This document shows positions 7,533 through 37,759 of a DNA stretch of 43,070 nucleotides, piece after piece. Source of the DNA: Muribaculum sp. (GTDB lineage Bacteria; Bacillota; Clostridia; Lachnospirales; Lachnospiraceae). The stretch is from the NCBI GenBank assembly GCA_023663735.1, contig JAMPGV010000021.1, forward strand, positions 1 to 43,070, read 5' to 3'. Within the stretch, counting starts at the first letter, position 1. Each line of letters opens with the position of its first letter. Position numbers and translations under genes: made by a program. The notes under the pieces are model-generated. The model was not told the DNA's origin, searched no databases, and worked only from the letters and a program-made list of their open reading frames with translations.

Positions 7533-7547
7533 TTCTTACAAAGTATA
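7533..7547 (+). repeat. Direct repeat flanking copy B, yabP side
   Basis: TTCTTACAAAGTATA matches the sequence at 7753-7767 in 14 of 15 positions. The two bracket repeat copy B and look like a target-site duplication. On the - strand the repeat reads TATACTTTGTAAGAA and lies just ahead of the yabP ribosome-binding site. Confidence 0.75.
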
Positions 7548-7751
7548 GGCGTTTGCGAAACTTCAGTTTAAGTAAGCCGAATTGTGCAGATTGTATATTC
7601 ATAAGCAGACCTTAGCGAACCGTTGGCACTTAGGCGCTGTATTTTAGCGCCTTATGTGCCACTACGGTGAGGTGAGAGCGAAAGCGTGTCTGCGTTGAAT
7701 GTGCAATTTGCACAATGACTCTTTGTAAATTAGAGCGTTTCGCAAACGCCT
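7547..7751 (-). repeat. Palindromic repeat element, copy B
   Basis: 205-bp element, inverted relative to the other four copies. Its terminal inverted repeats AGGCGTTTGCGAAAC and GTTTCGCAAACGCCT are perfect. Read on the - strand, the central stems are ACCGT/ACGGT, TGGCAC/GTGCCA and GGCGCT/AGCGCC around the invariant loop AAAATAC. It is very close to copy E in sequence. A 15-bp near-perfect direct repeat flanks it. It lies between rqcP and yabP, which are adjacent in B. subtilis. Confidence 0.9.
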
Positions 7752-7752
7752 A

Positions 7753-7767
7753 TTCTTATAAAGTATA
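7753..7767 (+). repeat. Direct repeat flanking copy B, rqcP side
   Basis: TTCTTATAAAGTATA is the partner of 7533-7547, with one mismatch. It supports insertion of copy B into a single ancestral site. Confidence 0.75.
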
Positions 7768-7810
7768 TGAATCCCGCCGCAAAATAGACCTCGCCCGGCC
7801 GTGCAAGCCT

Positions 7811-8050
7811 TTACAGATAGCGGAACAGCTCCTTCGCCTCCTCCTTGCGCACGGTCTCCTGCACATCCAGCACTTCCACCTTCACTTCCTTATTGCCGAA
7901 GGAGATGGTGATGATATCCCCCTCCTTTACATTGGCCGAAGCTTTCGCGGGCTTATCGTTAATCAGCACCCTGCCGCTGTCGCAGGCCTCGTTGGCCACG
8001 GTGCGCCGCTTGATCAGCCGGGACACCTTCAAATATTTATCCAGTCTCAT
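7811..8050 (-). CDS. rqcP: RNA-binding S4 domain protein, RqcP/YabO family
   Basis: A 79-aa protein consisting almost wholly of one S4 domain (MRLDKYLKVSRLIKRRTVANEACDSGRV). RqcP works with RqcH on stalled 50S subunits in ribosome quality control and C-terminal alanine tailing. The start is ATG 8050, with AGGGTGGTGTG upstream. A longer reading from 8128 crosses the HU terminator and is rejected. Its place upstream of yabP matches yabO of Bacillus. Confidence 0.9.
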   Translation of the reverse strand: MRLDKYLKVSRLIKRRTVANEACDSGRVLINDKPAKASANVKEGDIITISFGNKEVKVEVLDVQETVRKEEAKELFRYL

Positions 8051-8095
8051 CACACCACCCTGCCTTTCCGCAGACAAAATTTCTGAAAATTTTTC

Positions 8096-8126
8096 AAAAA
8101 AAGAGAACCCTCTTACAGGTTCTCTC
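8096..8126 (-). terminator. Intrinsic terminator after the HU gene
   Basis: On the - strand GAGAGAACC and GGTTCTCTT form a nine-base-pair hairpin, TGTAAGAG being the loop, followed by a run of seven T residues. It separates the strongly expressed HU gene from rqcP. Confidence 0.88.
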
Positions 8127-8144
8127 ATCTTGCATAAGCCGTCT

Positions 8145-8420
8145 TTATGCGTTCAGAACATCCTTCAGAGCCTTGCCGCCCTTGAACTTGGGAGACTTGG
8201 ATGCAGCAATCTTCATAGCCTTGCCGGTCTGGGGATTTCTGCCCTCTCTTGCGGGTCTCTCGGATACCTCGAAAGTACCGAAGCCAACAAGCTGAACCTT
8301 GCCGCCCTTCTTCAATTCATCTGTAACAACATCGGTGAAAGCCTTGAGAGCCTTCTCAGCATCCTTCTTAGAAAGATCAGCCTGGTCAGCCATAGCTGCG
8401 ATCAATTCCGTTTTGTTCAT
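8145..8420 (-). CDS. hup: HU-family DNA-binding protein
   Basis: Histone-like nucleoid protein that bends DNA as a dimer. The 91-aa sequence starts MNKTELIAAMADQADLSKKDAE and contains the HU signature GFGTFEVSERPAREGRNPQTGK in the DNA-binding arm. The start ATG 8420 has GGAGGAGTTCAAA upstream; a longer in-frame reading is rejected. A consensus-like promoter lies upstream and a strong terminator downstream, so it is a highly expressed single-gene unit placed between mazG and rqcP. Confidence 0.97.
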   Translation of the reverse strand: MNKTELIAAMADQADLSKKDAEKALKAFTDVVTDELKKGGKVQLVGFGTFEVSERPAREGRNPQTGKAMKIAASKSPKFKGGKALKDVLNA

Positions 8421-8503
8421 TTTGAACTCCTCCTGTAATAGGTTTACTTGGTGTGCGTTACGTTGCGTATTGCTCAATGCCTCTTTTGAAACGCCTATAC
8501 ATA

Positions 8504-8532
8504 TATATATCGGTTTTTTCCGGGTTTGTCAA
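8504..8532 (-). promoter_or_regulatory. Sigma-A promoter of the HU gene
   Basis: On the - strand TTGACA (8532-8527), a 17-bp spacer and TATATA (8509-8504). It lies about 85 bp before the start codon. Confidence 0.85.
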
Positions 8533-8589
8533 GGCATTTTGCGATAAATAAAGCTTTTTCTTGCGAAACGCGCCGATTTGAATCCCTCG

Positions 8590-9309
8590 TCAGGCGTCGT
8601 AGCGGGATATCAGAGCCTCGATTCTGTCCGAGAGAATCTGTTCCGGATACAGCTTGTGCATACGGCTGATGTCGGCCAGCGCCATGAGCGCGTCCCCCAC
8701 CTGCTCTGCGGTCTGCCCGACATTTTCCTCACCGCATTCCGGTGCGGATTCCCGCAGAGCTTTCGCCGCCGTCTCCAGCGCGGCGGCCGCGGATGCATAG
8801 TCCCGGCCCGTTCCGTAGAGCTTGTCCTCCTTCTTCAGCACCTTGACGGCTCTCGCAAGGGCGGAAAGTTCCGGCGGAATCTCCCGCAGAGGCGGCTGGC
8901 TTTGTTCCCTGCCCGCTTTCTCCTGCTTCTTCATCTCCTCCCAACGATCCAAAGCCTGACGGGAGTTGTCAGCGGCGGCCTCACCGAACACATGGGGATG
9001 GCGGCGCACCATCTTCTCCGCCACCTCGTTCACCACATCTTCCATGGTAAAAATCCCTTCCTCCTCGGCTATCCGGGCGTGCATCACCACCTGTAACAGC
9101 ACGTCCCCCAGCTCCTCCCGCAGATTGTCATAATCCCCCGTCTGGTCGTAGATGCGGATTCCGGCCAGCACTTCCGCCGCCTCCTCCGCCATGCAGGGGC
9201 GCAGGCTCATATGGGTCTGCTCCCTGTCCCACGGACAGCCGTTCTCACTGCGCAGGGTTTTGATGATCTCCAGAAAATCCTCATAGGTATATTTATTCGT
9301 CTTCTTCAT
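8590..9309 (-). CDS. mazG: Nucleoside triphosphate pyrophosphohydrolase MazG
   Basis: House-cleaning enzyme that converts NTPs to NMP and pyrophosphate. The N-terminal MazG domain has CPWDREQTHMSLRPCMAEEAAEV, with the metal-binding EExxE, and then EELGDVLLQVVMHA. A second, weaker MazG-like half fills the C terminus (EQVGDALMALADISR). The length is 239 aa from ATG 9309. The Shine-Dalgarno CGGAGG lies nine bases upstream, inside the 3' end of the PEGA gene, which overlaps by 17 bases. The two are therefore probably translationally coupled. Confidence 0.93.
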   Translation of the reverse strand: MKKTNKYTYEDFLEIIKTLRSENGCPWDREQTHMSLRPCMAEEAAEVLAGIRIYDQTGDYDNLREELGDVLLQVVMHARIAEEEGIFTMEDVVNEVAEKMVRRHPHVFGEAAADNSRQALDRWEEMKKQEKAGREQSQPPLREIPPELSALARAVKVLKKEDKLYGTGRDYASAAAALETAAKALRESAPECGEENVGQTAEQVGDALMALADISRMHKLYPEQILSDRIEALISRYDA

Positions 9310-10681
9310 CCTCCTCGTCCTCCGTATCCTCAATCTTCACCAGATCCGCAAAAGAATAAGAGAGATCTTTCTCCTCGTTATCCACCTGTATCGTGTAGCT
9401 TCTGGTGGTATAGCCTGTCCTGCGTAGCGTGATCACATGCGCTCCCGCCGTTTTCTTGAACGAGCAGGGCGCGATTCCCACATAATTGCCGTCCAGATAG
9501 ACCTCCACGTCGTCCGGCGAATCGATGTGGATCTTGTAATTGTTTGACGCTGCATCCGTCACATTCTTGTCCTTGTCTTTCTCCTCCTCTTTGTCCTCAT
9601 CCGCCGTCATGGATTCCAGCGCCACATTGATTCCGGCGGAAGCCTGTCCCACCCGGATATACTGGGTGATGGACTTATACCCGTCCGCCTTTACGATCAT
9701 CTGGTGAATCCCGTACTCCAAGGTCACGGGGCCGGAGACGTCCGTCTCGGTTCCGTCGATATAGACCGTCGCCTTGGAAGGGCTGATCGAGAACAGAAGC
9801 ATCCCCGTCTGCACTTCGGCCACCTCCAGATCCCCGATATCCAGCGCTGATTCCTCGTTCCGGTTGATGATGACGTTCTTTATGCCTCCGCCGCCCTTGT
9901 GGCTGATGCTCACCTGATAGCTGCCCTCCGGCACCACGATCAGCATGTCCTCCGCGATCTGCCGCACGATGGCCTGTCCGACCTCGATCCATCCGCCCAC
10001 GAAATTCTCATCGTTCACCAGACGCAGGTAGCCGTGTCCCTTCTCCACGCTGACACTGAGTACCTGATTGCCGATTCCCTGAAAACTCAACACATCCGCC
10101 GCGTTCAGATCCATTTTCTCGATATGCTGTCCCAGCGAGACGTACTGGGTATTGTCCGTAAGTTTAAAAATATCCTCCCCGATGGTCACTTCGCCGCGGA
10201 CATAGTCCATCTCATAGCGCGACACGCCCTCGTTGGTCCACGCTTCGGGGGAGCGCTGCATACTCACCAGATGTCTGCTGCTCTTTAAAAATGTGATGTC
10301 CACAATGTCCCCCACCCGGATCTGTTCCAGAGACACGCTCTCCCCGTACTTGTCGGTCAGCCGGGTGGTGCCGTCCATGGACAGGGTATAATATTTGCTC
10401 CGGTTCAGATTTAGAAAAGTGACACTTCCGTCATCTTTGTTTTTCTCGGTTAATATGGCCGTATCCGCGGAGTCGTAACTGTTCGGTCCGGTGAGGACAA
10501 AGCCCGTGTCAACCCGGCTCGGTTCCTGAGACGGAGCGCTCTCCTGCCGCCCGTAGTCCGAGCCGCAGGCGCACAACAGGAGCAGAAGCGGAAACAGTAA
10601 CAGGACGGGAGAACCGACTCTCTTTCTTTTGCGGTTTTGATTCCTTTTTCTTACAGTATCTGACATTCTTTTATCCAACAT
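9293..10681 (-). CDS. PEGA-domain lipoprotein
   Basis: 462-aa predicted lipoprotein. A basic N-terminus (RKRNQNRKRKR) precedes a hydrophobic stretch (about 25-38) that ends in a lipobox-like LCAC at about 36-39. The middle (about 60-270) has beta-rich repeats resembling cell-surface adaptor domains. Two PEGA-type modules follow: about 292-355 (SPSKATVYIDGTETDVSGPVTLEYGIHQMIVKADGY, in part) and about 385-440 (SPDDVEVYLDGNYVGIAPCSF, in part), joined by a charged linker DKEEEKDKDK. The tail is very acidic (EDTEDEEDEEDE), and this GAGGA-rich end also holds the mazG ribosome-binding site. The start ATG 10681 has GAGGAAAAGG upstream. Repeat copy C ends 27 bases before the start. Role unknown; it is probably an envelope scaffold. 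Confidence 0.85.
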   Translation of the reverse strand: MLDKRMSDTVRKRNQNRKRKRVGSPVLLLFPLLLLLCACGSDYGRQESAPSQEPSRVDTGFVLTGPNSYDSADTAILTEKNKDDGSVTFLNLNRSKYYTLSMDGTTRLTDKYGESVSLEQIRVGDIVDITFLKSSRHLVSMQRSPEAWTNEGVSRYEMDYVRGEVTIGEDIFKLTDNTQYVSLGQHIEKMDLNAADVLSFQGIGNQVLSVSVEKGHGYLRLVNDENFVGGWIEVGQAIVRQIAEDMLIVVPEGSYQVSISHKGGGGIKNVIINRNEESALDIGDLEVAEVQTGMLLFSISPSKATVYIDGTETDVSGPVTLEYGIHQMIVKADGYKSITQYIRVGQASAGINVALESMTADEDKEEEKDKDKNVTDAASNNYKIHIDSPDDVEVYLDGNYVGIAPCSFKKTAGAHVITLRRTGYTTRSYTIQVDNEEKDLSYSFADLVKIEDTEDEEDEEDE

Positions 10682-10708
10682 CCTTTTCCTCGCTCATTTC
10701 TAGGTGAT

Positions 10709-10915
10709 AGGTGATTGCGAAACGCTCCATTTCGTAAAGGGTCATTGTGCAAATTGTATATTCCAACACAGACACGCTTGCGCTCCCACCTCACCGTAAC
10801 GGCACATAAGATGCTAAAATACAGCATCTAAGTGCCGACGGTTCGCTAGGGTCTGCTTATGGGATATACAATCTGCACAATTCGGATTCCGAAAAATATA
10901 GTTCCGCAATCGCCT
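10709..10915 (+). repeat. Palindromic repeat element, copy C
   Basis: 207 bp. Terminal repeats AGGTGATTGCG and CGCAATCGCCT. Central stems ACCGT/ACGGT, CGGCAC/GTGCCG and GATGCT/AGCATC surround the loop AAAATAC. The outer arms ATTGTATAT and ATATACAAT also pair. It groups with copy D. The flanks ATTTCTAG and ATTTTTAG suggest a decayed direct repeat. It lies between the CotS-like gene stop (35 bases away) and the PEGA gene start (27 bases away). Confidence 0.9.
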
Positions 10916-10950
10916 ATTTTTAGTAATTGTGCAACGCGCCAATTTAGATT

Positions 10951-12003
10951 CTAAGGGGCATTTCCCGGTTCCCGGCATACGTTGCGGAACACCGTGTCCA
11001 GAAAATGCTGTTTGTCTTTCTCCTGTTCCACCAGTTTCTCCAACTTTTCCAGATTGCGCCCGGGAATCCAGGCTTTTCCGGAATTATAGTAAAAGTTGAC
11101 AATCTTCCGGAATTTCTCCGGGTATGCCAGCCGATAATACAGGTCAATTCTGCTGAGGGCGGACAGCGGCCGGGTCTTCTCGTAGGCCGCCAGCAGTTCC
11201 CTCCCCAGACTCACGGACCAGCTGCTCTTCTCCAGCAGTTTGCGCATCAGCAAATACAGATCCCGCACGGGATCATCCACCACGCATTTCTCGAAATTCG
11301 CCACAAACCATCCGTCCGCCGTCTTAATCAAATTGTGGTATTGATAATCCCCGTGGCAATAGGTGATCTTGCGGTTTCCCACGCCTTCCCCCCGCCGCAG
11401 TTTCTCATATTCGTCCCACTCCTTAGACAGCGTGTACGCCTGTTCCAGAAAAAAATCAAAATTCTGCTGCAGGCGGATCTCAAACCAGGTCTTCTGCCCG
11501 CGCTGCTTCAAATATTTGCGCACCCGCCGCAGTTCCCGGTTGCGCTTTTCATATTCCATGCCGGAAGACATAAAATACGGCCGAGCCGCGCTCTCCTCCG
11601 GACAGCCCCCGTCCGGCAGAAATTCCCCCTCGTCGAATTCCATCTCGGAATGAAGCCTTGCAAGCACACGGACGGACTCCAGACATTCCGCCCGGTCGTT
11701 GATATTGCACTCCCGTCCTTCCGCATAAGTCTTCAAAATATACATGGATCCGTCACGGTCCTTTACATACAGCGCGCCTTCTTTGCTCGGTATAATGGAT
11801 TCCACCTGAAGATCTCCGGCCTTCTGAAGATGCGTGAGCAGTCGGTTCTGGGCGGCAAGCCGCTCTTCATTTCCCGTGTATTCCTTAAAAATAAGGCTTC
11901 CCCGGGAGGTGTCACAGAGAATTGCTCCCCGTCCCTTGCGGGTCTTAAGCACCTCTATCTCATACTGTTCCAGCAAACTAACCTCTCTGTCATTCACCCT
12001 CAT
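10951..12003 (-). CDS. CotS-like spore coat protein, aminoglycoside phosphotransferase fold
   Basis: 350-aa protein of the APH/choline-kinase fold, CotS/CotI spore-coat group. An N-lobe with GSLIFKEYTG and ILKTYAEGRE precedes the catalytic loop YCHGDYQYHNLI (about 228-239). The following metal-binding position, usually DFD or DFG, reads NFEKCVVDDPVRDLY, so the first Asp is replaced by Asn. As I recall, coat-protein members of this family often vary here, so it may be a structural or weak kinase. ATG 12003 is only two bases from GGAGG; GTG at codon 3 has better spacing and may be the true start. It stands 72 bases downstream of cca and may share its transcript. Confidence 0.8.
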   Translation of the reverse strand: MRVNDREVSLLEQYEIEVLKTRKGRGAILCDTSRGSLIFKEYTGNEERLAAQNRLLTHLQKAGDLQVESIIPSKEGALYVKDRDGSMYILKTYAEGRECNINDRAECLESVRVLARLHSEMEFDEGEFLPDGGCPEESAARPYFMSSGMEYEKRNRELRRVRKYLKQRGQKTWFEIRLQQNFDFFLEQAYTLSKEWDEYEKLRRGEGVGNRKITYCHGDYQYHNLIKTADGWFVANFEKCVVDDPVRDLYLLMRKLLEKSSWSVSLGRELLAAYEKTRPLSALSRIDLYYRLAYPEKFRKIVNFYYNSGKAWIPGRNLEKLEKLVEQEKDKQHFLDTVFRNVCREPGNAP

Positions 12004-12075
12004 ATCCTCCTGACATCCGTGCTAATCTACTTTATGAAACAGCGTATGAAATTATGCAACGATTGCGCGGCGATC

Positions 12076-13431
12076 CTACAGCTTTTCCAGCTCCTCCAGA
12101 AGACGTTCTCTGGTATTGTACTCCGGATGCTCCAGCACCAGCTCCAGAAGCGCGTTCAGCTTCTCTCCGATCTCCGGACCCTGCCTGCATCCCGCCTCGA
12201 TCAGATCCCGCCCCGTGACCGCCAGACTCTTTAGGGACACGCACTGTCCCTCCTCCAGAATCTCCTCGTACAGCAGCTGCCAGCGGTCGATGATCTCCAA
12301 CTTTTCCTGCCGCAGATAATTGCTCTGCGCCAGCACATCCGCCCGCTTCACGGGAAAAATCAACGGAAAAATATCCTCCCCCACACGGTTTATGGCTCTG
12401 CGGACAATGCGCAGATCCGGAATCACGGAATTGCCGTAATCGTGGAACAATACGATCCGGCAGACCACGCGGATGGTCTCGTTGTCAAAACGCAGCCTGT
12501 TTAAGATCCGGCGAGTCATTTTTTCCCCCACCACATTATGCCCGTGAAAATGGGTGATCCCCGCCTCGTCCAGCTTCAGGGTGGCGGGCTTGCCGATATC
12601 GTGGAACAACATGGCCAGCCGGAAAATCCGGTCCGCCTCCACATTCACAAGCGAATGCAGAATATGTTCCCCCACGCTATACATGTGGTGCGGATGTTTC
12701 TGGGGCGTCCCCATACAAATGTCAAATTCCGGCAGAATTACTTTTGTGACGCCCATGTCATATGCATCCCGCAGGTAATCCGGATGCGGCGACGTCAAAA
12801 GTTTTACCAATTCCGTCTGAATGCGCTCCGCGCTGATCGCGCTCAAAGCGGGAGCCAGCTCCCGGATGGCTTCCCCGGTCTCCTCCTCAATATGATATCC
12901 CAGCTGGGCGGAAAAGCGTATGGCACGCAGGATGCGCAGGGCGTCCTCCCCGAAACGGGCCTTGGCGTCTCCCACACAGCGGATCAGCCCCCGCTCCAGA
13001 TCCGCCAGACCGCCGAAAATATCCACCAGACCGTGCGCCGCATTGTAAGCCATGGCATTGATCGTGAAGTCCCTGCGCCGCAAATCTTCGGTGAGGCTGG
13101 GCGTAAAAGAGACTTCACTGGGATGTCTGCCGTCCTCATATTTGCCGTCTATCCGGTATGTGGTGACCTCGAAGCCCTCCCGGTCCAGCATCACGGTCAC
13201 CGTGCCGTGCTGAATGCCCGTGTCGATGGTGCGGGGAAACAGCGCCTTCACCTGATTGGGTTTCGCGGACGTGGTGATATCCCAGTCCTCCGGTTCCCTC
13301 CCCAAGATGGAATCCCGGACGCAGCCGCCCACCACATAAGCTTCAAACCCTGCGCCCTCAATCGTATCAATGATATATTGTGCCTTGTCGGGTACGGCAA
13401 TCCGTACCTTGTCTGCCTCCGTCACTCGCAT
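12076..13431 (-). CDS. cca: CCA-adding tRNA nucleotidyltransferase with HD domain
   Basis: Adds or repairs the 3' CCA of tRNAs. The class II polymerase-beta head has VVGGCVRDSILGREPEDWDITTSA, with the DxD metal site, then RRRDFTINAMAYN and the RNA-binding domain EDALRILRAIRFSAQLGY. An HD domain (LFHDIGKPATL) follows; this is typical of the clostridial and enterobacterial forms. The 451-aa length is normal. The start is ATG 13431 with GGGAG close by; GTG at codon 3 is a reasonable alternative with better spacing. The two tRNA-Gly genes of this window do not encode CCA, so they depend on this enzyme. Confidence 0.93.
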   Translation of the reverse strand: MRVTEADKVRIAVPDKAQYIIDTIEGAGFEAYVVGGCVRDSILGREPEDWDITTSAKPNQVKALFPRTIDTGIQHGTVTVMLDREGFEVTTYRIDGKYEDGRHPSEVSFTPSLTEDLRRRDFTINAMAYNAAHGLVDIFGGLADLERGLIRCVGDAKARFGEDALRILRAIRFSAQLGYHIEEETGEAIRELAPALSAISAERIQTELVKLLTSPHPDYLRDAYDMGVTKVILPEFDICMGTPQKHPHHMYSVGEHILHSLVNVEADRIFRLAMLFHDIGKPATLKLDEAGITHFHGHNVVGEKMTRRILNRLRFDNETIRVVCRIVLFHDYGNSVIPDLRIVRRAINRVGEDIFPLIFPVKRADVLAQSNYLRQEKLEIIDRWQLLYEEILEEGQCVSLKSLAVTGRDLIEAGCRQGPEIGEKLNALLELVLEHPEYNTRERLLEELEKL

Positions 13432-13513
13432 ATCTCCCGTCTATTTCCAGATAAATTCATCCTCACCTGCTCTGATTGGTCCGTTCTTTGATCCGCCTTG
13501 GAATCTATGGATT

Positions 13514-13542
13514 ATTATACCCAAAAGTCTCCGCGCGGTCAA
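13514..13542 (-). promoter_or_regulatory. Sigma-A promoter of cca
   Basis: On the - strand TTGACC (13542-13537), a 17-bp spacer and TATAAT (13519-13514). It is located between the terminator of the ATP-grasp operon and cca. Confidence 0.85.
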
Positions 13543-13588
13543 ATAGTATTCTCTCCCGCCGTCTTGTGCCGCAGCGCGCCGTCATGCG

Positions 13589-13618
13589 TTAAAAAACCGG
13601 GCGTTTCAACGCCCGGCT
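13589..13618 (-). terminator. Intrinsic terminator of the ATP-grasp operon
   Basis: On the - strand GCCGGGCG and CGCCCGG form a GC-rich stem with loop TTGAAA, followed by TTTTTT. It begins 14 bases after the stop of the last operon gene. Confidence 0.92.
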
Positions 13619-13631
13619 CGGATATTTTGAC

Positions 13632-14561
13632 TCAATATTTTTCGATCAGTTTTATGACCGCCGTATTGGCATAAGTCAAGGGTTCATTATGCACAAAAAA
13701 CACCACCCTGTCAAAGGGAGCATAAAGCGTTTCCAGAACGTCCCCCTCATACGGGTTTAAGATATTTGCCAGCGGCTGTCCGGTTCTGACTTCCTCCCCC
13801 GCCTTTACCAGAGGTTCAAAAATACCGGATTTCGCCGTCTTTATCATAATCATATCCTCATCATGCACGATCTTGGAATGCAGCTTGTCCGGTATGCTGT
13901 ATTTTAACATTCCCTGCCCGGACAAAAAATTCATAACCGCCAGAACTGCCTGACCCGCGCTGTTTCGGTCGATTCTGGACGTCGTGGATGTATACAGGGA
14001 AAACGCCTGCGTATTCCACACCTGCCAGTTGTAATTCAGCGTTGCGGTATCATAAGGCCGTACCCTGCGGATGATGACATAAGGGAGGCCGAACAGCCTT
14101 GCCGTCTCGGGATCGCTGAAACCTTCGTCCATCAGCCGCACGTGGGGTACAAAATCCCCCGGCATATAAAAGGATGTAAACTGAATCCCGAACCGATACT
14201 CCGAGATTTCCCGGAAAACGCCGTCCGCAATCCTCTGGGTGGTCTCCCCCAGATCATACCCGGGGAACATTCTGTTGATATCCGTATTGTCCGTTGACCA
14301 GAATCTTTTCTGGATATTCATGGAATAGGGGTTGATGGAGGGGATGATCAAAATTTTATGCCCTTTTGCAATTCTCCCTTCCTCCTCCAACTGTTTCATT
14401 TTCTTCACCAGCTGGGAGCAGCAGTAGATCTGCTGTACCTCGTTCCCTCTGGAACTGCCCACGATACAGACAGAGTTTTCCCCGGTTCCAAATTCATATC
14501 CCGTCACGCGGAATGTATCCCGGTAGATTCCCTTGAGTTCATAAATGATCCTTTTATTCAT
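13632..14561 (-). CDS. AstE/aspartoacylase-like protein, zinc ligands missing
   Basis: 309-aa paralogue of the upstream gene and of the succinylglutamate desuccinylase/aspartoacylase family (M14-like zinc enzymes). Compared with the active neighbour, HGDE is replaced by RGNE (38-41) and the second histidine motif DIHAS by IQFTS (126-130). Two of the three zinc ligands are therefore lost, and a pseudoenzyme is inferred. The INRMFPG segment (95-101) and the C-terminal beta-barrel part (KSGIFEPLVKAGEEVRTGQPLANI) remain intact. The start ATG overlaps the stop of the upstream paralogue by eight bases, which suggests stoichiometric expression and perhaps a heteromeric enzyme. It is the last gene of the operon. 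Confidence 0.82.
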   Translation of the reverse strand: MNKRIIYELKGIYRDTFRVTGYEFGTGENSVCIVGSSRGNEVQQIYCCSQLVKKMKQLEEEGRIAKGHKILIIPSINPYSMNIQKRFWSTDNTDINRMFPGYDLGETTQRIADGVFREISEYRFGIQFTSFYMPGDFVPHVRLMDEGFSDPETARLFGLPYVIIRRVRPYDTATLNYNWQVWNTQAFSLYTSTTSRIDRNSAGQAVLAVMNFLSGQGMLKYSIPDKLHSKIVHDEDMIMIKTAKSGIFEPLVKAGEEVRTGQPLANILNPYEGDVLETLYAPFDRVVFFVHNEPLTYANTAVIKLIEKY

Positions 14562-15504: not shown

Positions 15505-15560
15505 ATGAATGACCATACCTTTCTGTAGTCTTCAAATCTACGGTTCTTCCTACCAGTTCC

Positions 15561-18515: not shown

Positions 18516-18586
18516 AGCGGGTGATGGGAATCGAACCCACGTATCCAGCTTGGAAGGCTGGTGTTCTACCATTGAACTACACCCGC
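18516..18586 (-). tRNA. tRNA-Gly (UCC)
   Basis: 71-nt cloverleaf. The acceptor arms GCGGGTG and CACCCGC pair with discriminator T. The anticodon stem CCAGC/GCTGG encloses loop CTTCCAA, so the anticodon is TCC. The T arm GTGGGTTCGATTCCCAT is normal. CCA is not encoded. A TTTTTT run directly follows the 3' end. Confidence 0.97.
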
Positions 18587-18675
18587 ATATTGTGCGGCAG
18601 ACACAAGGCCCGCACACAAAGGTATGAAATTATGCTGCTTGATGCTCCATGCGCCGCCGCAATCTACGACGCCAG

Positions 18676-18747
<72 letters not shown>

Positions 18748-22969: not shown

Positions 22970-23003
22970 TTCTGCTGCTCTCCTCATTTTATGATAACTC
23001 TCC

Positions 23004-23210
23004 GGGCGATTGCGAAACGCTACGTTTCGTAAAGGGTCATTGTGCAAATTGTATACTCCAACGCAGACACGCTTGCGCTCCCACCTCACCGCAACGGTAC
23101 ATAAGACGCTAAAATACAGCGTCTAAGTACCAGCGGTTCGCTAGGGTCTGCTTATGGGGTATACAACTCGCACAATTCGGATTCCGGAAAATATCGTTTT
23201 GCAAATGCCC
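23004..23210 (+). repeat. Palindromic repeat element, copy D
   Basis: 207 bp. Terminal repeats GGGCGATTGCG and CGTTTTGCAAATGCCC. Central stems ACCGC/GCGGT, GGTAC/GTACC and GACGCT/AGCGTC surround the loop AAAATAC; each stem differs from the other copies but stays paired. It groups with copy C. It fills the whole space between the two giant transglutaminase genes: its right end is two bases from the upstream gene's stop codon and its left end is 34 bases from the downstream gene's start. No clear direct repeats flank it. Confidence 0.9.
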
Positions 23211-23212
23211 AA

Positions 23213-29926: not shown

Positions 29927-30020
29927 CACATTCCCTCCCAAACCGCTATCACAAAGATCCGTTCGGCCTTCATCAAACTGCAAAGTCAACGATTGCATCA
30001 TACTTTGAATCACACTTTAT

Positions 30021-30049
30021 ATGATAAAACAAATTCTCCAAATAGACAA
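30021..30049 (-). promoter_or_regulatory. Possible sigma-A promoter of the 2237-aa gene
   Basis: On the - strand TTGTCT (30049-30044), a 17-bp spacer and TATCAT (30026-30021), about 95 bases before the start codon. The -35 is imperfect. Two TTGACA/TTGACT sequences nearby lack a partner at proper spacing. Confidence 0.4.
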
Positions 30050-30096
30050 TATGTCAAAGTCAAACCTACGCCAAAATCAACACCTCCTGCGCCCTG

Positions 30097-31368: not shown

Positions 31369-32815
31369 GCCTCTCTCCGCTCCCATCTTTTTGTCCCGTC
31401 TGTCCGCCGTTTTGTCCCACTTTGATTCTGGATTTTTCCCAGATACGGCTCTTGTACAATACCAGCCAGATCATGGAAGAGATGCCGTTGCTGACCACCA
31501 CGGAATACCAGATGCTCCGCACTCCCATATCGAGAACCGTCTCGCAGAACCAGATGGTCAGAAAGCGGAAGACCCAGAGCCTCGCCGCATCCATCGCCAT
31601 GGTAAACTCCGTATGACCCGTTCCCTGAAACAGTCCCGTGGTGGCATTATAGACCCCGTTGGTGAAGCACCAAAACGCCATGATGCTCAAGAAGTCCGCC
31701 GCCATCTCCACCACCGCCGCATCGTCCGAGAAAATACTCACAATGCCGGTGGAGATCACATCCCTTGATAAAATCATACCACCAATGAACAAAAATACAA
31801 CACATATTTTCATGGAAAGAAAATACCCTTCCCTTGCGCGTTCCTTCTGCCCGGCTCCCATATTCTGCCCCACGATGGTCGCCACGGCGGAACCGATGCC
31901 GTTGGAAGGCAGCGTGATCAGTCCGTTGATCTTATTGCCGATGCCATACGCCGCCATCGCCTCGCTCCCGTAGGTATACACATTTTTGGTCAAAAGCAGG
32001 AAGCCCAGATGCATACTGCTGCCGCCGATTGCCGTGGGCAGACCGATCTGTAGGATCAATTTCACCTTCTCCCGCTCAAAGCGCATATGGCGCACATCCA
32101 GATGCACCTCTTGATTCCGCCTGCAGAGCAGATAAAAAGCCACGAACGCGGGAGCCATCTTCGCTAAAAGCGTGGCAAGCGCCGCCCCGGCGGTTCCCAT
32201 ATTCATTCCCACCATAAACAAAGGATCCAGAACCATATTAAAGAGAATACCGCCCAGATTCAGAAACATAGGCCGCACCGTATCTCCCTGCGCCTGCTGC
32301 ACCGCGGAGAAAATATTCACCATATACAGAAACGGCATATCCCAGATTACAATGCGCAGATACATGCAGGCATGGCCGAAAATGTCTCCGTCCGCCCCCA
32401 GCCAGCGCACAATACCGGAAGTCGCCGCAAACACCGCCGCCGCACAGAAGAGTGAAAAACACCCGGCACAGGCAAAAATCTGATTCGCCATGGATTTGGC
32501 ATTCTCCTTCTCGCCCGCACCGATATACTGAGCAATCAGCACGGAACCCGCCACGGTGATCCCCGTTCCCACACTGATGATAATATTCTGCATGGGCGTC
32601 ACCAGATTGATGGCGGCCAGCTGCTCCGTCCCGATCTGCCCCAGCCAGTAGGTGTCCGTCAGATTGTACATGGTCTGCAAAAAACTGTTGATGACCACCG
32701 GAACCGCCAGCGACAGGATCGCCCGCAGCATACTCCCCTTTAAAATGAAGTCCTGATTGTTCTTCGTCTGATTCCAGAATTTCCCGTTTCCTTTGATCCG
32801 ACTCATGCCGCTCAT
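31313..32815 (-). CDS. MATE-family efflux transporter
   Basis: 500-aa multidrug and toxin extrusion type transporter. Twelve hydrophobic segments fill residues about 28-445. The MATE motifs are ILSLAVPVVINSFLQTMYNLTDTYWLG near the N terminus and TGLFQGTGHTEFTMAMDAARLW in the C-terminal half. The hydrophilic tail (about 450-500) is rich in Gly, Gln and Lys and overlaps the start of the DUF3810 gene. The start ATG has GGGAGTGGTAGA upstream. It probably exports cationic compounds with Na+ or H+ exchange; the substrate cannot be read from sequence. Confidence 0.93.
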   Translation of the reverse strand: MSGMSRIKGNGKFWNQTKNNQDFILKGSMLRAILSLAVPVVINSFLQTMYNLTDTYWLGQIGTEQLAAINLVTPMQNIIISVGTGITVAGSVLIAQYIGAGEKENAKSMANQIFACAGCFSLFCAAAVFAATSGIVRWLGADGDIFGHACMYLRIVIWDMPFLYMVNIFSAVQQAQGDTVRPMFLNLGGILFNMVLDPLFMVGMNMGTAGAALATLLAKMAPAFVAFYLLCRRNQEVHLDVRHMRFEREKVKLILQIGLPTAIGGSSMHLGFLLLTKNVYTYGSEAMAAYGIGNKINGLITLPSNGIGSAVATIVGQNMGAGQKERAREGYFLSMKICVVFLFIGGMILSRDVISTGIVSIFSDDAAVVEMAADFLSIMAFWCFTNGVYNATTGLFQGTGHTEFTMAMDAARLWVFRFLTIWFCETVLDMGVRSIWYSVVVSNGISSMIWLVLYKSRIWEKSRIKVGQNGGQTGQKDGSGERHVDGKTAADGQAAGNAKA

Positions 32816-32854
32816 TCTACCACTCCCTTTTCCCCTCTATTTTACAACAAAAAG

Positions 32855-32901
32855 ACAGCGTTATCCGCCAGTTATTTAATCAACTTTCGGAAAAACGCTG
32901 T
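32855..32901 (-). terminator. Hairpin after the DUF3048 gene, possible bidirectional terminator
   Basis: ACAGCGT (32855-32861) and ACGCTGT (32895-32901) pair, extended by TCCG/CGGA, around an AT-rich loop. T-runs follow on both strands: CTTTTT on the - strand and seven T on the + strand. It lies 83 bases beyond the DUF3048 stop and 40 before the MATE start. Confidence 0.45.
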
Positions 32902-32984
32902 TTTTTTGTGATTTTGTCAACAAGAGTGTCATCCCGGACGCCATTCCGGAATGCAACTAGGAAGACCTGTTTGGCAAATCTGCG

Positions 32985-34238
32985 TTACTGAAAGATCGCT
33001 TTGCCGTCCGCCTCCGCATACTCGGAATACTCTTTCCAAATATTGCAGAGCCATGTCTTGCCCTGATTCAGGACGATCTCATTGCCGTCCTCGTCATAAA
33101 AATGGTTGGCGTCATAATCGCTCTCGTGCTTCCAAGTACCCTTAATCATTTTGCCGTTGGTGAACACGCAGGCGTCGCCCGTGCCGTGCAGACCGAACGC
33201 CAGATAATCGTGGTCGTCCCTCACCTCGCCATGGCAGACTTTGAAGATCACATTGGTGACCGCCACCTGCTCGCCGTTCATCTCGTCAATCTGTTCTGCG
33301 CCGTACTGAGTGCGGTAATAGAGACCGTCTTCCGCATTATAGGTAAAGCAGGCATTGTTCTGGCCGTATCCACCCTTGTTGCTCTGGCTTCCGCCGGGAC
33401 GGATCTCCAGCGCGTCGGGGAAATCCGCATACTCCGCCTTGCAGTCATTGGCAAACAGATACGCCTGAGGATCGCGGCCCAGATCTTCAAAACGCCCGGA
33501 CTCTTCGTAAGTCTTGCCATATCCCTTCGCTTCCACGCCCGCGCTGTAACCCTTCACGGACTGATCCGGCGCGTCGCTGCCGTCGCTGGGGCTTGCCGCC
33601 TTCAACCACATATATGCGGTAAACTCGGTGGCGTAACCGCCGCTTCTTCTATCCTGTCTTCTCGCAAACGCAGCCTCATAAGGACTGGAAATGCCGCCCA
33701 CCGCCTGAGAGATGTTGTCCACTCTGGAGGAATTCAACAAGTCTGACACATAGGGAACCGCCAGCCCCCAATGACAGTAAATGGCGTCCAGCGCCATGGC
33801 CTCGTATACAAAATAATCGCGGCTGCTGCGGATCGGCCCGATATAGGTCATATCGTCGTAATCTTCCACCACGCACATCAGACGGGTGATACGCCCCTCC
33901 ACAGGCGCCTCGTAAATGATGCTCGCCTGCGTGATTCCGTACTGGGGCATGGCAGGGGGATTGTTGGGGATCATGATCGCTAGCGGTCTCCGCTGAACCA
34001 CATCCGCATCCTTCCACTCTCCGGTGAGATAACTCTGCATCTTGCCGTCCGTCACCATTCTCTCGGTAATCACGGAAAACTCCTTGCTCTCCTCCTCCGT
34101 CAAACTCTCTTCCGTAGACTCTGCCACAGAGGAAGATTCCGGCTCGATCTCCTTAATAATCGGACCGTCTGTAGACTTGCCGCAGGCCGTCATCATACAA
34201 GTTGCAATCAAAATAGCTGCGATGATCTTCTTTTTCAT
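32985..34238 (-). CDS. DUF3048 lipoprotein (YerB family)
   Basis: 417-aa lipoprotein. The N terminus MKKKIIAAILIATCMMTACG ends in the lipobox MTAC, with Cys19 as the lipidated residue. An acidic spacer rich in Ser and Glu follows, then the two YerB/DUF3048 domains: RPLAIMIPNNPPAMPQYGITQASIIYEA, typical of the N-terminal part, and GTWKHESDYDANHFYDEDGNEIVLNQGKTW in the C-terminal part. It is envelope-associated; its function is not known. The start is ATG 34238, with AAGGATTATCAC upstream; a longer reading has no site. It has its own promoter. Confidence 0.9.
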   Translation of the reverse strand: MKKKIIAAILIATCMMTACGKSTDGPIIKEIEPESSSVAESTEESLTEEESKEFSVITERMVTDGKMQSYLTGEWKDADVVQRRPLAIMIPNNPPAMPQYGITQASIIYEAPVEGRITRLMCVVEDYDDMTYIGPIRSSRDYFVYEAMALDAIYCHWGLAVPYVSDLLNSSRVDNISQAVGGISSPYEAAFARRQDRRSGGYATEFTAYMWLKAASPSDGSDAPDQSVKGYSAGVEAKGYGKTYEESGRFEDLGRDPQAYLFANDCKAEYADFPDALEIRPGGSQSNKGGYGQNNACFTYNAEDGLYYRTQYGAEQIDEMNGEQVAVTNVIFKVCHGEVRDDHDYLAFGLHGTGDACVFTNGKMIKGTWKHESDYDANHFYDEDGNEIVLNQGKTWLCNIWKEYSEYAEADGKAIFQ

Positions 34239-34282
34239 GTGATAATCCTTTCGTAAAAAATATACTTCAAAACCCAAGTTCT

Positions 34283-34311
34283 ATTTTATCTTCTGTTTGC
34301 CGTTTTGTCTA
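34283..34311 (-). promoter_or_regulatory. Sigma-A promoter of the DUF3048 gene
   Basis: On the - strand TAGACA (34311-34306), a 17-bp spacer and TAAAAT (34288-34283), about 45 bases before the start codon. Confidence 0.7.
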
Positions 34312-34392
34312 TTTAAAATATCTTAATTTTTGTCTTTTTCCAGAAATAACCAAATAATTCGTACACTATTCCTACCCTATTCCTGCATCCTG

Positions 34393-34402
34393 TTCCTACA
34401 TT
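34393..34402 (+). repeat. Candidate left attachment-site core
   Basis: TTCCTACATT is repeated in the same direction at 37821-37830. It is preceded by TATTCCTGCATCC, against TATTCCTTGC at the right copy. It lies 20 bases past the 3' end of the recombinase gene. Two more ATTCCT motifs stand just to the left and may be arm sites. Confidence 0.35.
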
Positions 34403-34421
34403 TTCCCACATCGGCTGTCCG

Positions 34422-35663
34422 TCATTCGATTTTTTCCAATTCCTGCCGCATCCAGCTCAGTTCCCGTTTCGTATAAATTTTCTCCGTAATATCCGATACC
34501 GCATGGCCTACCATGTATTTAATCGCATATTCGTCAACGCCGTACCGTTTGGCCGCCGTGACAAAATGCGTCCGCCCGTCGTGAGGTCTGTGCAGCGGAT
34601 TCAGCTTCAATTCCTCCCGTATCCGCACAAACCCTTTGTGGTAACGGTCATAAGTCAGCATGGTGTTCTGCCGGTTCCGCATCGGCGTCATGCAGTTGAA
34701 CAGGTACTGGCTTCCCATAAGCTCCGCCTCTCTATATCTGCGCGCCACCAATCCCCTGATTCTGGGATGAATCGGCACCACCCGGTCCGTACCCGCCTCC
34801 GTCTTCATTCCGCCCTTGAACGTCCACTCCTCCAAATCGGTATTTTCCAGCTTCAGCAGACCGATTTCCTGCGGCCGCCACCCGGAATAGCACTGGATCA
34901 GCAGCACATCCACATAGCGCTTGTCGTCCACATGCTCCCAGAGCCGCTTCATCTCCTCGTCCGTAAAAGCCAGATGCCCTTTCTTCACCGTCACAATCTC
35001 CTTGATAACCTCATCCGGCAGATGAAAAGTTCTCGCATAATTCCGATCCACAATCTCATATTCCAACGCATAATCCAACATGAGATTGAACAGGGATTTG
35101 ATCTTATTCTTGGTGCTGGCGTTGGGATGCTGCTGTCTGCCCCTAACCACCGCAACCCCTTCCTCCATACAGGCTTTCACATGGCGCGCACGCACATCCG
35201 CCGCACGCATATCGTACAGGGAAGAACAATATCCCCAAGCCAGCGTCACCGCTTGAATGCTCGCCTCGGATTTTAACGTCTTGAAATACTCTGACGTCCA
35301 TCTCCCGTACAGTTCTTTCACCGTGATGGCGGAATCCATATCATAGGGATTCCTGTGATACTCCACCAGCGCCGCATAGGCCTCGCCGTATGTGGAAAAA
35401 TAAGCCGCCGGTTTGAGGGGTTTGCAGATGGGCCGCCCGGCCGGAGTCTTGCCCACCGTCACCATCGCCCGGAACGGCTTTCTTAAATTCCGGTTTTTGA
35501 TCTCGCTTATCTGGCCGAATCCATTGGGCAAACGCCTGTGTCTGTGCGCCGATCTGCCCGGTCTCCTAGTCTTGGCGTCCGCCCGCATCGGATAACCGCA
35601 ATGCGGACAATGCAAAGCCTTATCGCTCACCTGCAGTTCGCATTCGGGACATTTTATCAGCAT
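34422..35663 (-). CDS. Tyrosine recombinase with N-terminal zinc ribbon
   Basis: 413-aa site-specific recombinase or integrase. The first 25 residues form a zinc ribbon, CPEC (5-8) and CPHC (19-22). A basic linker, an SAM-like core-binding domain (about 110-220) and the catalytic domain follow. The catalytic residues are Arg263 (SGWRPQE), Lys287, His361 with Arg364 (RPHDGRTHF), His387 (MVGHAV) and the nucleophile Tyr397 (KIYTKREL). All are present, so it should be active. The start ATG 35663 has GGAGGTGAGCATT upstream. The neighbouring Rpn gene and repeat copy E suggest an accessory segment. Confidence 0.93.
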   Translation of the reverse strand: MLIKCPECELQVSDKALHCPHCGYPMRADAKTRRPGRSAHRHRRLPNGFGQISEIKNRNLRKPFRAMVTVGKTPAGRPICKPLKPAAYFSTYGEAYAALVEYHRNPYDMDSAITVKELYGRWTSEYFKTLKSEASIQAVTLAWGYCSSLYDMRAADVRARHVKACMEEGVAVVRGRQQHPNASTKNKIKSLFNLMLDYALEYEIVDRNYARTFHLPDEVIKEIVTVKKGHLAFTDEEMKRLWEHVDDKRYVDVLLIQCYSGWRPQEIGLLKLENTDLEEWTFKGGMKTEAGTDRVVPIHPRIRGLVARRYREAELMGSQYLFNCMTPMRNRQNTMLTYDRYHKGFVRIREELKLNPLHRPHDGRTHFVTAAKRYGVDEYAIKYMVGHAVSDITEKIYTKRELSWMRQELEKIE

Positions 35664-35681
35664 AATGCTCACCTCCGTATC

Positions 35682-35703
35682 GCTTATCATCAGCTTGTCA
35701 TCA
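35682..35703 (+). repeat. Tandem 11-bp direct repeat in the recombinase leader
   Basis: GCTTATCATCA and GCTTGTCATCA lie head to tail with one mismatch, between the recombinase promoter and its start codon. They may be protein-binding sites, for example for autoregulation by the recombinase. Confidence 0.6.
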
Positions 35704-35706
35704 GTA

Positions 35707-35735
35707 AGCATATCCGTCCGCCGGGAAATTGTCAA
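35707..35735 (-). promoter_or_regulatory. Sigma-A promoter of the recombinase gene
   Basis: On the - strand TTGACA (35735-35730), a 17-bp spacer and TATGCT (35712-35707), about 45 bases before the start codon and immediately before the 11-bp repeats. Confidence 0.7.
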
Positions 35736-35779
35736 TCTGTCCCGCAGCGGGAATCCTAGGCTGTCGCTTAGGATACAGA

Positions 35780-36736
35780 TTACACTCCCGCCCGCTGCAG
35801 AAAGGACTCAATGCTCTCCGCTCCTGCGGCTGTCTTCAGCCACTGCTTCAAGACGCTCAGATCCTGCTGGCTCAAAATCTGCTCCCGAAGGTACTCAGGG
35901 ACAGCGCCCAATTCTTCCAGAAGAAACAAGACCGATTCGGCCTTTCCCTCGGCTCTGCCCTCCGCGATCCCCTCGGTCATTCCGCGCTCATACTCCGTCT
36001 TGCGCATGGCGCGCCGGGTCTCTTCCTCGTCATACTCAAAAATACTCATGAACCTAACCTCCGCCTTATTCGCCAGCAGGAATTCCTTCAGAACCCCCTG
36101 AGCGATACACTCGTCCACCGCGCGGTCTACTGCTTCCCCGATGGGCAGAGACCCCGCATAGAACCTGACCTTGTCCACATACTGCATATACTCCCCCAAC
36201 GTCTGGCACTGAGCTTTCAAATCCTCATTGCATCCGGCATTGATATTGAACACCTGCACAATCAGCTCCAGTTCCGGCTCCGCTCCCTCCCGGCCTGCAT
36301 AGGCGTCCGAAAGCCGCATGGAAAGCCGTTCCGGGCAAGGCGCAGTCCCATTGTAGAATACCATGAAATGAGGCGCCGGAACAGGAACCGTCCTGCCGCC
36401 GTAGAGGTTCTCCCCCGCCGTAAGCCTCCCGTACTCCGCCGCCACATACTGCAGAAACCGCAGCGGCATGTTCGGGTTCACGGTGGACTGATGCTCAAAC
36501 AGATAAAGGTTCATGTCGATCAGCAGGGCAACGTCATTCTTCACCCCCAGATAGACGGCGCTCTCCAGCGTGACGATCTCCAGCGCCGCCGGATCACGGT
36601 AATCCTTTCCCGCAACCGCATTGTAAAGCCCCAGCAGCCTCGCCCGGTCCCGGAAAAGCATCCGAAATACCGTGTCCTTGTAACAGCGGTTCGGGTGCGC
36701 AGCCGCAGGACGGGTTTTCCTGTGTTTTCTCTTCAT
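35780..36736 (-). CDS. Rpn-family PD-(D/E)XK nuclease / transposase-like protein
   Basis: 318-aa member of the Rpn/YhgA (PDDEXK transposase) family, which are recombination-promoting nucleases often scattered in multiple copies. The N-terminal part has the family features YKDTVFRMLFRDRARLLGLYNAV and then DVALLIDMNLYLFEHQST, with the acidic D..EHQ nuclease residues. The C-terminal part has the helical repeat GMTEGIAEGRAEGKAE, typical of this family. The start ATG 36736 has AGGAGGTACTT upstream, and longer frames are rejected. Complete and apparently intact. Confidence 0.88.
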   Translation of the reverse strand: MKRKHRKTRPAAAHPNRCYKDTVFRMLFRDRARLLGLYNAVAGKDYRDPAALEIVTLESAVYLGVKNDVALLIDMNLYLFEHQSTVNPNMPLRFLQYVAAEYGRLTAGENLYGGRTVPVPAPHFMVFYNGTAPCPERLSMRLSDAYAGREGAEPELELIVQVFNINAGCNEDLKAQCQTLGEYMQYVDKVRFYAGSLPIGEAVDRAVDECIAQGVLKEFLLANKAEVRFMSIFEYDEEETRRAMRKTEYERGMTEGIAEGRAEGKAESVLFLLEELGAVPEYLREQILSQQDLSVLKQWLKTAAGAESIESFLQRAGV

Positions 36737-36755
36737 AAGTACCTCCTTTTGGGGG

Positions 36756-36779
36756 TGCATTTCCCAAAAAGGAAATGCA
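36756..36779 (-). promoter_or_regulatory. Perfect hairpin in the Rpn gene leader
   Basis: TGCATTTCC (36756-36764) and GGAAATGCA (36771-36779) form a perfect 9-bp stem with a six-base loop. It lies about 10 bases upstream of the ribosome-binding site. It may affect translation or mRNA stability, or be a binding site. Confidence 0.55.
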
Positions 36780-36934
36780 GAGGAAAACCCGGCTGTTCCC
36801 GTCCCGGCTTCCTGTTGACCCCGTGCGTTTTGATGTGTGGGTAAAAGCACAGATTTCGTTTGAAGTCAGACGGGAGAACTCCCTAAGACATGGCGCAGCC
36901 ATGGATGAATCCAAAGAATATATGCTTTTAGAAA

Positions 36935-36963
36935 AGTATAGCAGAGCCATTGGGGATTGGCAA
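36935..36963 (-). promoter_or_regulatory. Sigma-A promoter of the Rpn gene
   Basis: On the - strand TTGCCA (36963-36958), a 17-bp spacer and TATACT (36940-36935). It gives a leader of about 190 bases that includes the 9-bp hairpin. The rest of 36780-37019 shows no gene. Confidence 0.7.
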
Positions 36964-37019
36964 GAAATATTTTTGTTTGCGCCACGTAAAACACTGTGAT
37001 GCAAAAATGTTTTATCTGA

Positions 37020-37049
37020 TTGACACTGTTTGCTCATCGCACATATAAT
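37020..37049 (+). promoter_or_regulatory. Sigma-A promoter of the DUF2442 gene
   Basis: TTGACA (37020-37025), an 18-bp spacer and a consensus TATAAT (37044-37049), 29 bases before the start codon. Confidence 0.82.
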
Positions 37050-37078
37050 AGACTCAAAATAATAGGAGGTTGATGAAT

Positions 37079-37371
37079 ATGTTCCCTAAAATAATTCAGG
37101 TTGTTCCAACGAGAGAGTATACCGTGTATGTATATTTTGAAGACGGCAAAATTGTATGCTATGATGTAAAACCTCTATTGGATAAAGAAGTGTTTGCCGT
37201 TTTAAGGGAAGTTGAATATTTTATAAAACCTGTACGATAATGAACGATACCTTAGCATGGGATGTATCTGGAAACAGGGATAACACTATGTGTATTGATA
37301 TTGATCCGGATATGTTGTATGGGTTAGATGCTATAAAAGAGAAGCTGCCGATCAGTACATGGGAGCGATGA
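37079..37371 (+). pseudogene. DUF2442 gene broken by two compensating frameshifts
   Basis: Small cytosolic DUF2442-type protein of about 97 codons. The start ATG has GGAGG nine bases upstream, and the reading MFPKIIQVVPTREYTVYVYF is clear up to residue 40. At a five-T run (37200-37204) one extra T shifts the frame to a TGA at 37214. The reading continues as LREVEYF in the +1 frame, until an AAAA run (about 37226-37229) lacks one base. After that TCTIMNDTLAWDVSGN and a full C terminus appear. The net change is zero. Either a real decaying gene or two homopolymer sequencing errors. Promoter and ribosome site are intact, which favours errors or recent decay. Confidence 0.75.
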
Positions 37372-37541
37372 TTTTCTGGTTTGGCAAATCCGTATTCCGA
37401 AATCTACTGTTGCGCTATTTTACCCTTACGCTAAAACCCTTAACAGTCCGGGGCGAATCGGTAAGCAATACCGTCTTGTAGTTACAATTCCTAAAACCCT
37501 ATCATTCCGTCATTCTTTTCTTTCTTCCGCTATACTCACTC
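37372..37541. other. Intergenic region without recognised gene
   Basis: 170 bases with no open frame of note. CTAAAACCCT occurs twice (about 37430 and 37492). No promoter or terminator is convincing. Confidence 0.5.
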
Positions 37542-37553
37542 TTTCCACCATCA
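37542..37553 (+). repeat. Direct repeat flanking copy E, left
   Basis: TTTCCACCATCA is repeated perfectly at 37759-37770, directly at the two ends of repeat copy E. It fits a 12-bp target-site duplication. Confidence 0.8.
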
Positions 37554-37554
37554 C

Positions 37555-37759
37555 AGGCGTTTGCGAAACACTCTAATTTACAAAGAGTCATTGTGCAAAT
37601 TGCACATTCAACGCAGACCCGCTTTCGCTCCCACCTCACCGTAATGGCACATAAGGCGCTAAAATACAGCGCCTAAGTGCCAACGGTTCGCTAGGGTCTG
37701 CTTATGAATATACAATCTGCACAATTCGGATTCCGAAAAATGCAGTTTCGCAATCGCCT
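37555..37759 (+). repeat. Palindromic repeat element, copy E
   Basis: 205 bp. Terminal repeats AGGCGTTTGCGAAAC and GTTTCGCAATCGCCT (one mismatch). Central stems ACCGT/ACGGT, TGGCAC/GTGCCA and GGCGCT/AGCGCC surround the loop AAAATAC; an outer stem GCAGAC/GTCTGC also pairs. Nearly identical to copy B read on the other strand. Perfect 12-bp direct repeats flank it. It lies inside the accessory segment. Confidence 0.92.

Follow-up and report, generated by a model that had tools for sequence, protein, structure and literature searches.

What are the long palindromic repeats that recur along a contig assigned to Muribaculum sp. (GTDB lineage Lachnospiraceae; assembly GCA_023663735.1, contig JAMPGV010000021.1), and what does their capacity to fold signify? 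The window, by which we mean the whole stretch of 43,070 nucleotides that was analysed, is contig C13 of a draft assembly that totals 2.65 Mb in 73 contigs and is 87% complete. A sequence-only reading of the window had described five copies, A to E, of a palindromic element that it did not recognise, whose hairpin stems differ between copies but remain paired, and had concluded that the folded form, in RNA or single-stranded DNA, is selected or required for mobility. The repeats are gene-less, intergenic miniature inverted-repeat transposable elements (MITEs). We consider it probable that their cargo is a folded module of nucleic acid that has been conserved, and that this fold is under selection, most likely as RNA.

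At its centre the element has a core of 89 nucleotides, a three-way junction that includes a GNRA hairpin. Taken from the strand that runs against the orientation of copy C, the core reads GCAGAC-CC-UU-P2-P3-UU-P4-loop-P4-UAU-P3-CU bulge-P2-GG-AGC GNRA GCG-N-GUCUGC; it is characterised by a CU bulge of two nucleotides, an internal loop (UU/UAU) and a hairpin of two pairs (P5) that is capped by the GNRA loop. The strand that reads GNRA is the minus strand in copies A, C, D and E and the plus strand in copy B, whose orientation is opposite to that of the others. The minimum-energy RNA fold of copy E, obtained with no alignment, is the same junction (-106.1 kcal/mol, z = -11.6, with 0 of 200 shuffled sequences as good).

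The paired stem differences between the copies are real. The 38 distinct cores of the window's own genome contain 84 double-change cells, compared with 24.8 ± 7.8 after shuffling (0/500). Alignment A1, whose 36 rows come from nine genomes, took 12 of these 38 copies, and one false match (L001, 2966) was left out beforehand; 91.2% of its cells are paired and it has 149 double-change cells, compared with 44.6 when shuffled and at most 32 when slid. The covariance model used in the family searches was built from A1, and a wider alignment was fitted to this model; it comprises 114 matches in 111 distinct rows from about 58 genera by our own grouping. Alignment A4 was made from 100 chosen loci. Double change is found in the wider alignment at 31 of the 32 pairs and in 945 cells, compared with 274 ± 13 shuffled and at most 165 slid. 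A covariance search of the genome and its relatives had been proposed as a check on the reading, and strong covariation is what it returned.

The hairpin loop of P5 adds a constraint of a different kind. It is GNRA in 112 of 113 rows (GAGA 44, GAAA 42, GGGA 8, GCAA 6, GCGA 6, GGAA 5 and GUAA 1), the exception being AAAA; one further row is truncated at the loop and stands outside the 113. The P5 stem has CG as its second pair in 100 rows and UA in 12. The AAAATAC loop at the tip of the palindrome had been called invariant, which holds for the five window copies but not across the wider family. In genome G022, all five of the copies read, out of 13 matches, have a hairpin of 16 nucleotides inserted into the P4 loop at one and the same position (L033, L040, L047, L051 and L055). 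Docking of the GNRA loop in the internal loop of the same molecule was considered but is probably not feasible, as the hairpin seems too short for it.

The family remains unnamed in the material searched, where neither an absence of covariation nor identity with a named family was found. Rfam 15 gives only two tRNAs for the window at gathering score, and none of five core loci gives a match there at E <= 5. The element is not named in Rfam 15 or in literature searches by title and start of abstract, and its absence from print is limited to that scope.

The core is widespread within one bacterial family. Core relatives were found in nine of the 61 genomes of a first sample, all from one genus, and some of these lack the ends of the window's elements and are set in other well-paired arms of unrelated sequence. 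Of 299 Lachnospiraceae genomes, which represent 298 genera, the covariance model matches 116, from 115 genera; in a class-wide sample it matches seven of 291 genomes, all seven of them Lachnospiraceae; both searches used strict filters that miss weak matches. A second search of 38 positive genomes gave matches in all 38, with a single copy in two genomes, 41 in G156, 45 in G085 and at least 115 in G328. Carriage of the core by phages or plasmids found no support in the searches made for it: two 15-mer scans of viral contigs gave 25 and 16 loci, none of which passed the model, and nothing was found by BLAST against phages with copy C or against plasmids with one relative's core and one core plus arms.

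The frame around the core is that of a DNA transposon. The elements end in 16 bp terminal inverted repeats with the sequence TAGGCGWTTGCGAAAC, and the window's own genome contains the end motif TAGGCGNTTGCGAAAC, with two mismatches at most, 96 + 89 times, compared with 7 + 8 times for the reversed motif as control. Pairing of the ends in the fetched stretches of this genome yields 54 elements in four size classes, 53-90 bp (7), 201-209 bp (36), 225-241 bp (3) and 254-289 bp (8). Direct repeats score at least 9 in 34 of the 53 elements that have enough flank, compared with 0 of 1965 mismatched flank pairings. Perfect direct repeats over 10-16 bp as scored, mostly 10-13 bp, flank 21 elements; their length is ambiguous by about two bases because the element ends mostly read TA. 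The five copies first described are an undercount, as BLAST with copy C finds 48 places in this genome and the covariance model gives 58 matches at E <= 0.001, among them copies B, C, D and E but not copy A.

The reading had suggested looking for a transposase gene with the same ends, and such a gene exists in relatives, where an insertion sequence (IS) of about 1.75 kb combines the ends of the MITEs with an IS1182-like transposase. In relative G016 a 501-codon transposase gene lies between TAGGTAATTGCGAAAC and TAGGCGTTTGCGAAAC, in a 1742 bp stretch that reaches the contig end. The transposase was found in three of the 61 genomes of the first sample (G005, G014 and G016), and a scan of named genomes gave 49 transposase loci, most of them labelled Lachnospiraceae or as genera that we place in that family, with a few labelled Bacteroidales, Oscillospiraceae or Clostridiaceae. 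Both ends are present at 31 of 51 transposase loci, a count that includes two loci twice, and most of these elements are 1.74-1.81 kb long; perfect 10-14 bp direct repeats, as scored, flank 14 of the 31 (e.g., L122, L123, L129, L130, L146 and L153). DUF772 scores 53-54 bits in both proteins analysed, and DDE_Tnp_1 scores 30.2 bits in one and 22.3 bits in the other (cut-off 23). The best NCBIfam match is the IS1182 model NF033551, whose domain content the partner transposase shares; however, at 82.1 and 81.3 bits the scores are far under the curated cut-off of 270, and we therefore use the name IS1182-like only. Because the MITE ends match the IS ends and both are flanked by direct repeats of similar length, we infer that the MITEs are mobilised in trans. 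Past the 16 bp ends, the few IS and MITE ends that were set side by side show little likeness by eye.

The same core is also found between other ends. The TAGGCG frame has both ends at 16 of the 114 matches, from seven genera, compared with one in the control, and these ends lie 57-63 nucleotides from the core; only the 16 two-ended matches were used, because matches with a single end (10 of 114) do not exceed the control (12 with any end). A second frame, in G226, is represented by seven copies of 262-263 bp that end in GGTGTCAAAAGCCCTTA; their direct repeats measure 8-9 bp in six copies and 6 bp in the seventh. A long-arm frame in G328 comprises four copies of 232-234 bp with the ends GTAACAGTTCAGCC and repeats of 8 bp (L240), 7 bp (L243) and none for two copies in L284; for this frame and that of G226, the repeats were scored without a random control. 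Another G328 subfamily has conserved flanks and no visible direct repeat. With at least three unrelated sets of ends around the same core, the core resembles an exchangeable module. At L284:19079-19648, also in G328, a repeat of about 250-570 bp overlaps or adjoins a folded element, and it has many matches in G328 and, among the matches listed, in four of five sister genomes.

Conversely, the ends are found without the core. Seven elements of 53-90 bp have the same ends and lack it, and four of the seven have perfect 10-12 bp direct repeats. They represent either transposition of the ends on their own or deletion of the palindrome in place; the core may not be needed for mobility. The two halves of the original proposal, that the fold is selected or that it is required for mobility, fare differently. 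Selection can be inferred from the asymmetric core and the GNRA loop of 112 of 113 rows, whereas a requirement for mobility is not supported, given the core-less elements and the other ends around the core. The window's own genome has core-less elements of 75-90 bp, with both ends and perfect 10-12 bp repeats, at L002, L072, L073 and L083.

Several results weigh against the explanation of the repeats as trans-mobilised MITEs with a selected RNA cargo. The shuffles used to assess covariation ignore shared descent. No direct repeat was scored for copies C and D, and the draft genome to which the window belongs (87% complete) yielded no IS1182-like transposase. The folded core is present in none of 52 IS loci according to the covariance model, which gives no support to the core as a part of the IS and argues against an origin of the MITE by simple deletion from the IS. 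No link between the IS and the core is seen across the family: the core is present in 11 of the 27 transposase genomes among the 299 family genomes, where 10.5 are expected (p = 0.84). Because transposase and core are not associated and other sets of ends carry the core, the core is not tied to one transposon. The excess of G-U over A-C at the pairs is only mild and weaker than expected of plain RNA (60 versus 41 cells; 49 versus 31 by genus, p = 0.057; 49 versus 22 without one pair, p = 0.002), and wobble counts alone do not settle whether RNA or DNA folds.

Covariation does not automatically mean selection either, because copying from one arm of a palindrome to the other also makes paired changes. 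If template switching between the arms during replication were the source of these changes, the covariation would be a by-product with no selection on the fold. The outer arms in G328 look like the outcome of such copying: in 20 copies these arms, 23-75 bp long, are 98.1% Watson-Crick paired (731 of 745 positions) with almost no wobble, and yet they are only 65% identical between copies (over 26 nucleotides) compared with 90% for the cores. Several pairs in the window's own genome switch between UA and CG with no intermediate among the 38 copies, and one copy in another genome (G644:C3, L328 ~2050-2620) looks symmetrised by eye, with GNRA-type hairpins on both arms, and may be a snapshot of the process. 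However, copying alone would not keep an asymmetric core but would erase the asymmetry, and the one-sided GNRA hairpin, the CU bulge and the unequal internal loop persist across about 58 genera; nor can pairing explain the GNRA loop. Arm copying probably adds to the observed covariation, but we think it improbable that it accounts for the covariation without selection. That the arms derive from the target site was ruled out. Among five sister species found for G328, the element labelled E1 is absent from its site in three and E3 in one; because the empty sites hold neither arm, the arms travel with the element.

If the fold is selected, it could still work as single-stranded DNA during transposition, as in the HUH systems IS200/IS605 and REP/RAYT. 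The G-U and A-C counts, which differ little, would fit this, and d(GCGAAAGC) forms a stable hairpin as DNA. Yet terminal inverted repeats delimit the frames and direct repeats flank most tested copies, as is characteristic of double-stranded DNA moved by DDE transposition; the partner transposase is of the DDE type, and core-less elements exist. The P5 loop also distinguishes the two: DNA GNNA loops tolerate any third base, whereas the third base is a purine in 113 of 113 rows. Loop pyrimidines occur at the second position in 13 rows and at the third in none (Fisher tests, p = 0.0002 by rows and 0.0014 by genus). RNA is favoured because a third position that takes only purines is the RNA rule for GNRA loops. 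We thus regard it as likely that the folded form acts as RNA, and a role as single-stranded DNA in transposition as quite unlikely. An ordinary cis-regulatory RNA, a riboswitch or leader that was spread by chance with the MITEs, appears the least plausible of these explanations and is very unlikely in our judgement. Many copies are close to genes, and by eye some stand right before an apparent ribosome-binding site. However, in the 95 of the 114 matches whose loci have at least 2500 bases, the genes on either side are evenly oriented: both opposite at 33 matches and both the same way at 30, convergent at 22, divergent at 8, and lacking on one side at 2. Only two groups of neighbouring proteins recur at more than three loci out of 88, and the two members of each group that were checked are ABC transporters and two-component proteins. 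No conserved neighbour gene beyond such common families was found in these 88 loci. No open reading frame of at least 100 codons spans the element in any of the 95 matches. With an even orientation and no recurrent neighbour gene, the context argues against a cis-regulatory leader and favours a benefit, to the element or the cell, that is independent of the site.

For the preferred explanation of MITEs with a selected RNA cargo, we can sketch how the parts may work together. The MITEs would be moved by the IS1182-like transposase, and the folded form would be under selection most likely as an RNA on the GNRA-reading strand, made when transcription of a neighbouring gene reads through the element. 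The GNRA loop and the two internal loops might be recognised by an RNA or a protein. The benefit may fall to the element, for example if control of the processing or stability of the read-through transcript makes intergenic insertions tolerable. The long outer arms in other genera would be kept perfectly paired in part by arm-to-arm copying of palindromic DNA. Our best guess is that the core serves as an RNA domain in read-through transcripts. More tentatively, and with somewhat less than even confidence, we propose that the core represents a functional RNA domain of a new class, which has a binding partner or an activity of its own and is an exchangeable cargo taken up by several unrelated families of DNA transposons and spread over more than one third of Lachnospiraceae genera. 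If this were the case, it would be the RNA counterpart of a passenger gene, inside MITEs.

The mobile part of the element is ordinary in kind. MITEs are usually viewed as empty shells that need only their ends, and the window's repeats share with bacterial MITEs such as Correia/NEMIS, ERIC and RUP their short length, lack of genes, intergenic location, many copies, direct repeats, and inverted repeats in common with a full IS. They differ in the homologous three-way-junction core that is kept across the family between unrelated ends; to our knowledge, known MITEs have no such core. What stands out is this core, which has no Rfam 15 match, is widespread in the family, is shared by unrelated ends and has a constrained loop. 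REP and BIME sequences with their RAYT transposases are likewise intergenic palindromic repeats with possible RNA hairpins; however, REPs as described in passages of PMC3733652 are 20-40 bp long, carry a GTAG or CGTC tag and depend on HUH transposases, while the unit here is about 207 bp long with inverted-repeat ends and direct repeats, no search having been aimed at a RAYT gene. Among the structured RNA candidates from the human microbiome, 250 of 3161 are palindromic according to the main text of PMC8040213, and the core motif may be one of them; that main text, its tables lying outside it, contains no word starting with "lachno" or "transpos". A precise fold kept over the depth of a bacterial family, in combination with different ends and with one to more than 100 copies per genome, poses a testable question, namely what the cell or the transposon gains from it. 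The elements also form a natural data set, in common gut bacteria, for separating structural selection from palindrome correction, a trap in covariation analysis.

The copies in the window are listed in Table 1. They had been described as five copies of 205-207 bp; B to E are complete and lie where they had been placed, whereas A belongs to a longer class and is cut by the contig end.

Table 1. Copies of the element, their folded cores and direct repeats, and the tRNA genes in the window.
Feature	Position	Strand	Description
Copy A	1..242	-	Element of the long class, missing its left end because of the contig start; terminal repeat on the right at 227-242; additional hairpin inside core at ~67-135 (read off alignment)
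Copy B, left direct repeat	7533..7547		15 bp, one mismatch to right repeat; takes in TA of element end
Copy B	7546..7752	+	Complete MITE; both 16 bp ends (7546-7561, 7737-7752) match TAGGCGTTTGCGAAAC exactly
Copy B, folded core	7605..7693	+ (RNA-like strand)	Covariance model, E = 1.2e-21
Copy B, right direct repeat	7753..7767
Copy C	10708..10916	-	Complete MITE; no direct repeat scored
Copy C, folded core	10768..10856	-	Covariance model, E = 1.6e-20
Two tRNA genes	18516-18747	-	Rfam 15 scan
Copy D	23003..23211	-	Complete MITE; 2 mismatches in each end; no direct repeat scored
Copy D, folded core	23063..23151	-	Covariance model, E = 1.4e-20
Copy E	37554..37760	-	Complete MITE; 12 bp direct repeat TTTCCACCATCA without mismatch at 37542-37553 and 37759-37770, sharing the final two bases of the element
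Copy E, folded core	37613..37701	-	P1, P2, P3, P4 and GNRA hairpin P5; covariance model and minimum-energy fold

Copies B and E are 94% identical, C is 88% identical to both D and E, and the remaining pairs among B to E are 80-85% identical. Copy A had been grouped with B and E as a subfamily, but its identities (88.6% with C, 88.1% with E, 85.2% with B and 84.7% with D) leave this grouping unclear. The hairpin inserted in copy A is about 65 nucleotides long, as in the 254-289 bp class elsewhere in the genome. In the long-class elements (window 1-242; L074, L075, L076, L077, L082, L084 and L088) the inserted core hairpin reads GAGGTGAG...CTCACCTTG; a further small hairpin, AACGTAACTTCGTTACG, is present in some of these elements, and the GNRA hairpin has been lost from several. 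The insertions of the long class form a nested series of domain gains. The starts of three other contigs of the same genome, C12, C25 and C41 (L071, L030 and L027), read TTTTGACACCC and lie near an element; this sequence is similar to GGTGTCAAAAG, found at the ends of the second frame (G226), and another type of IS may be breaking the assembly at these contig starts.

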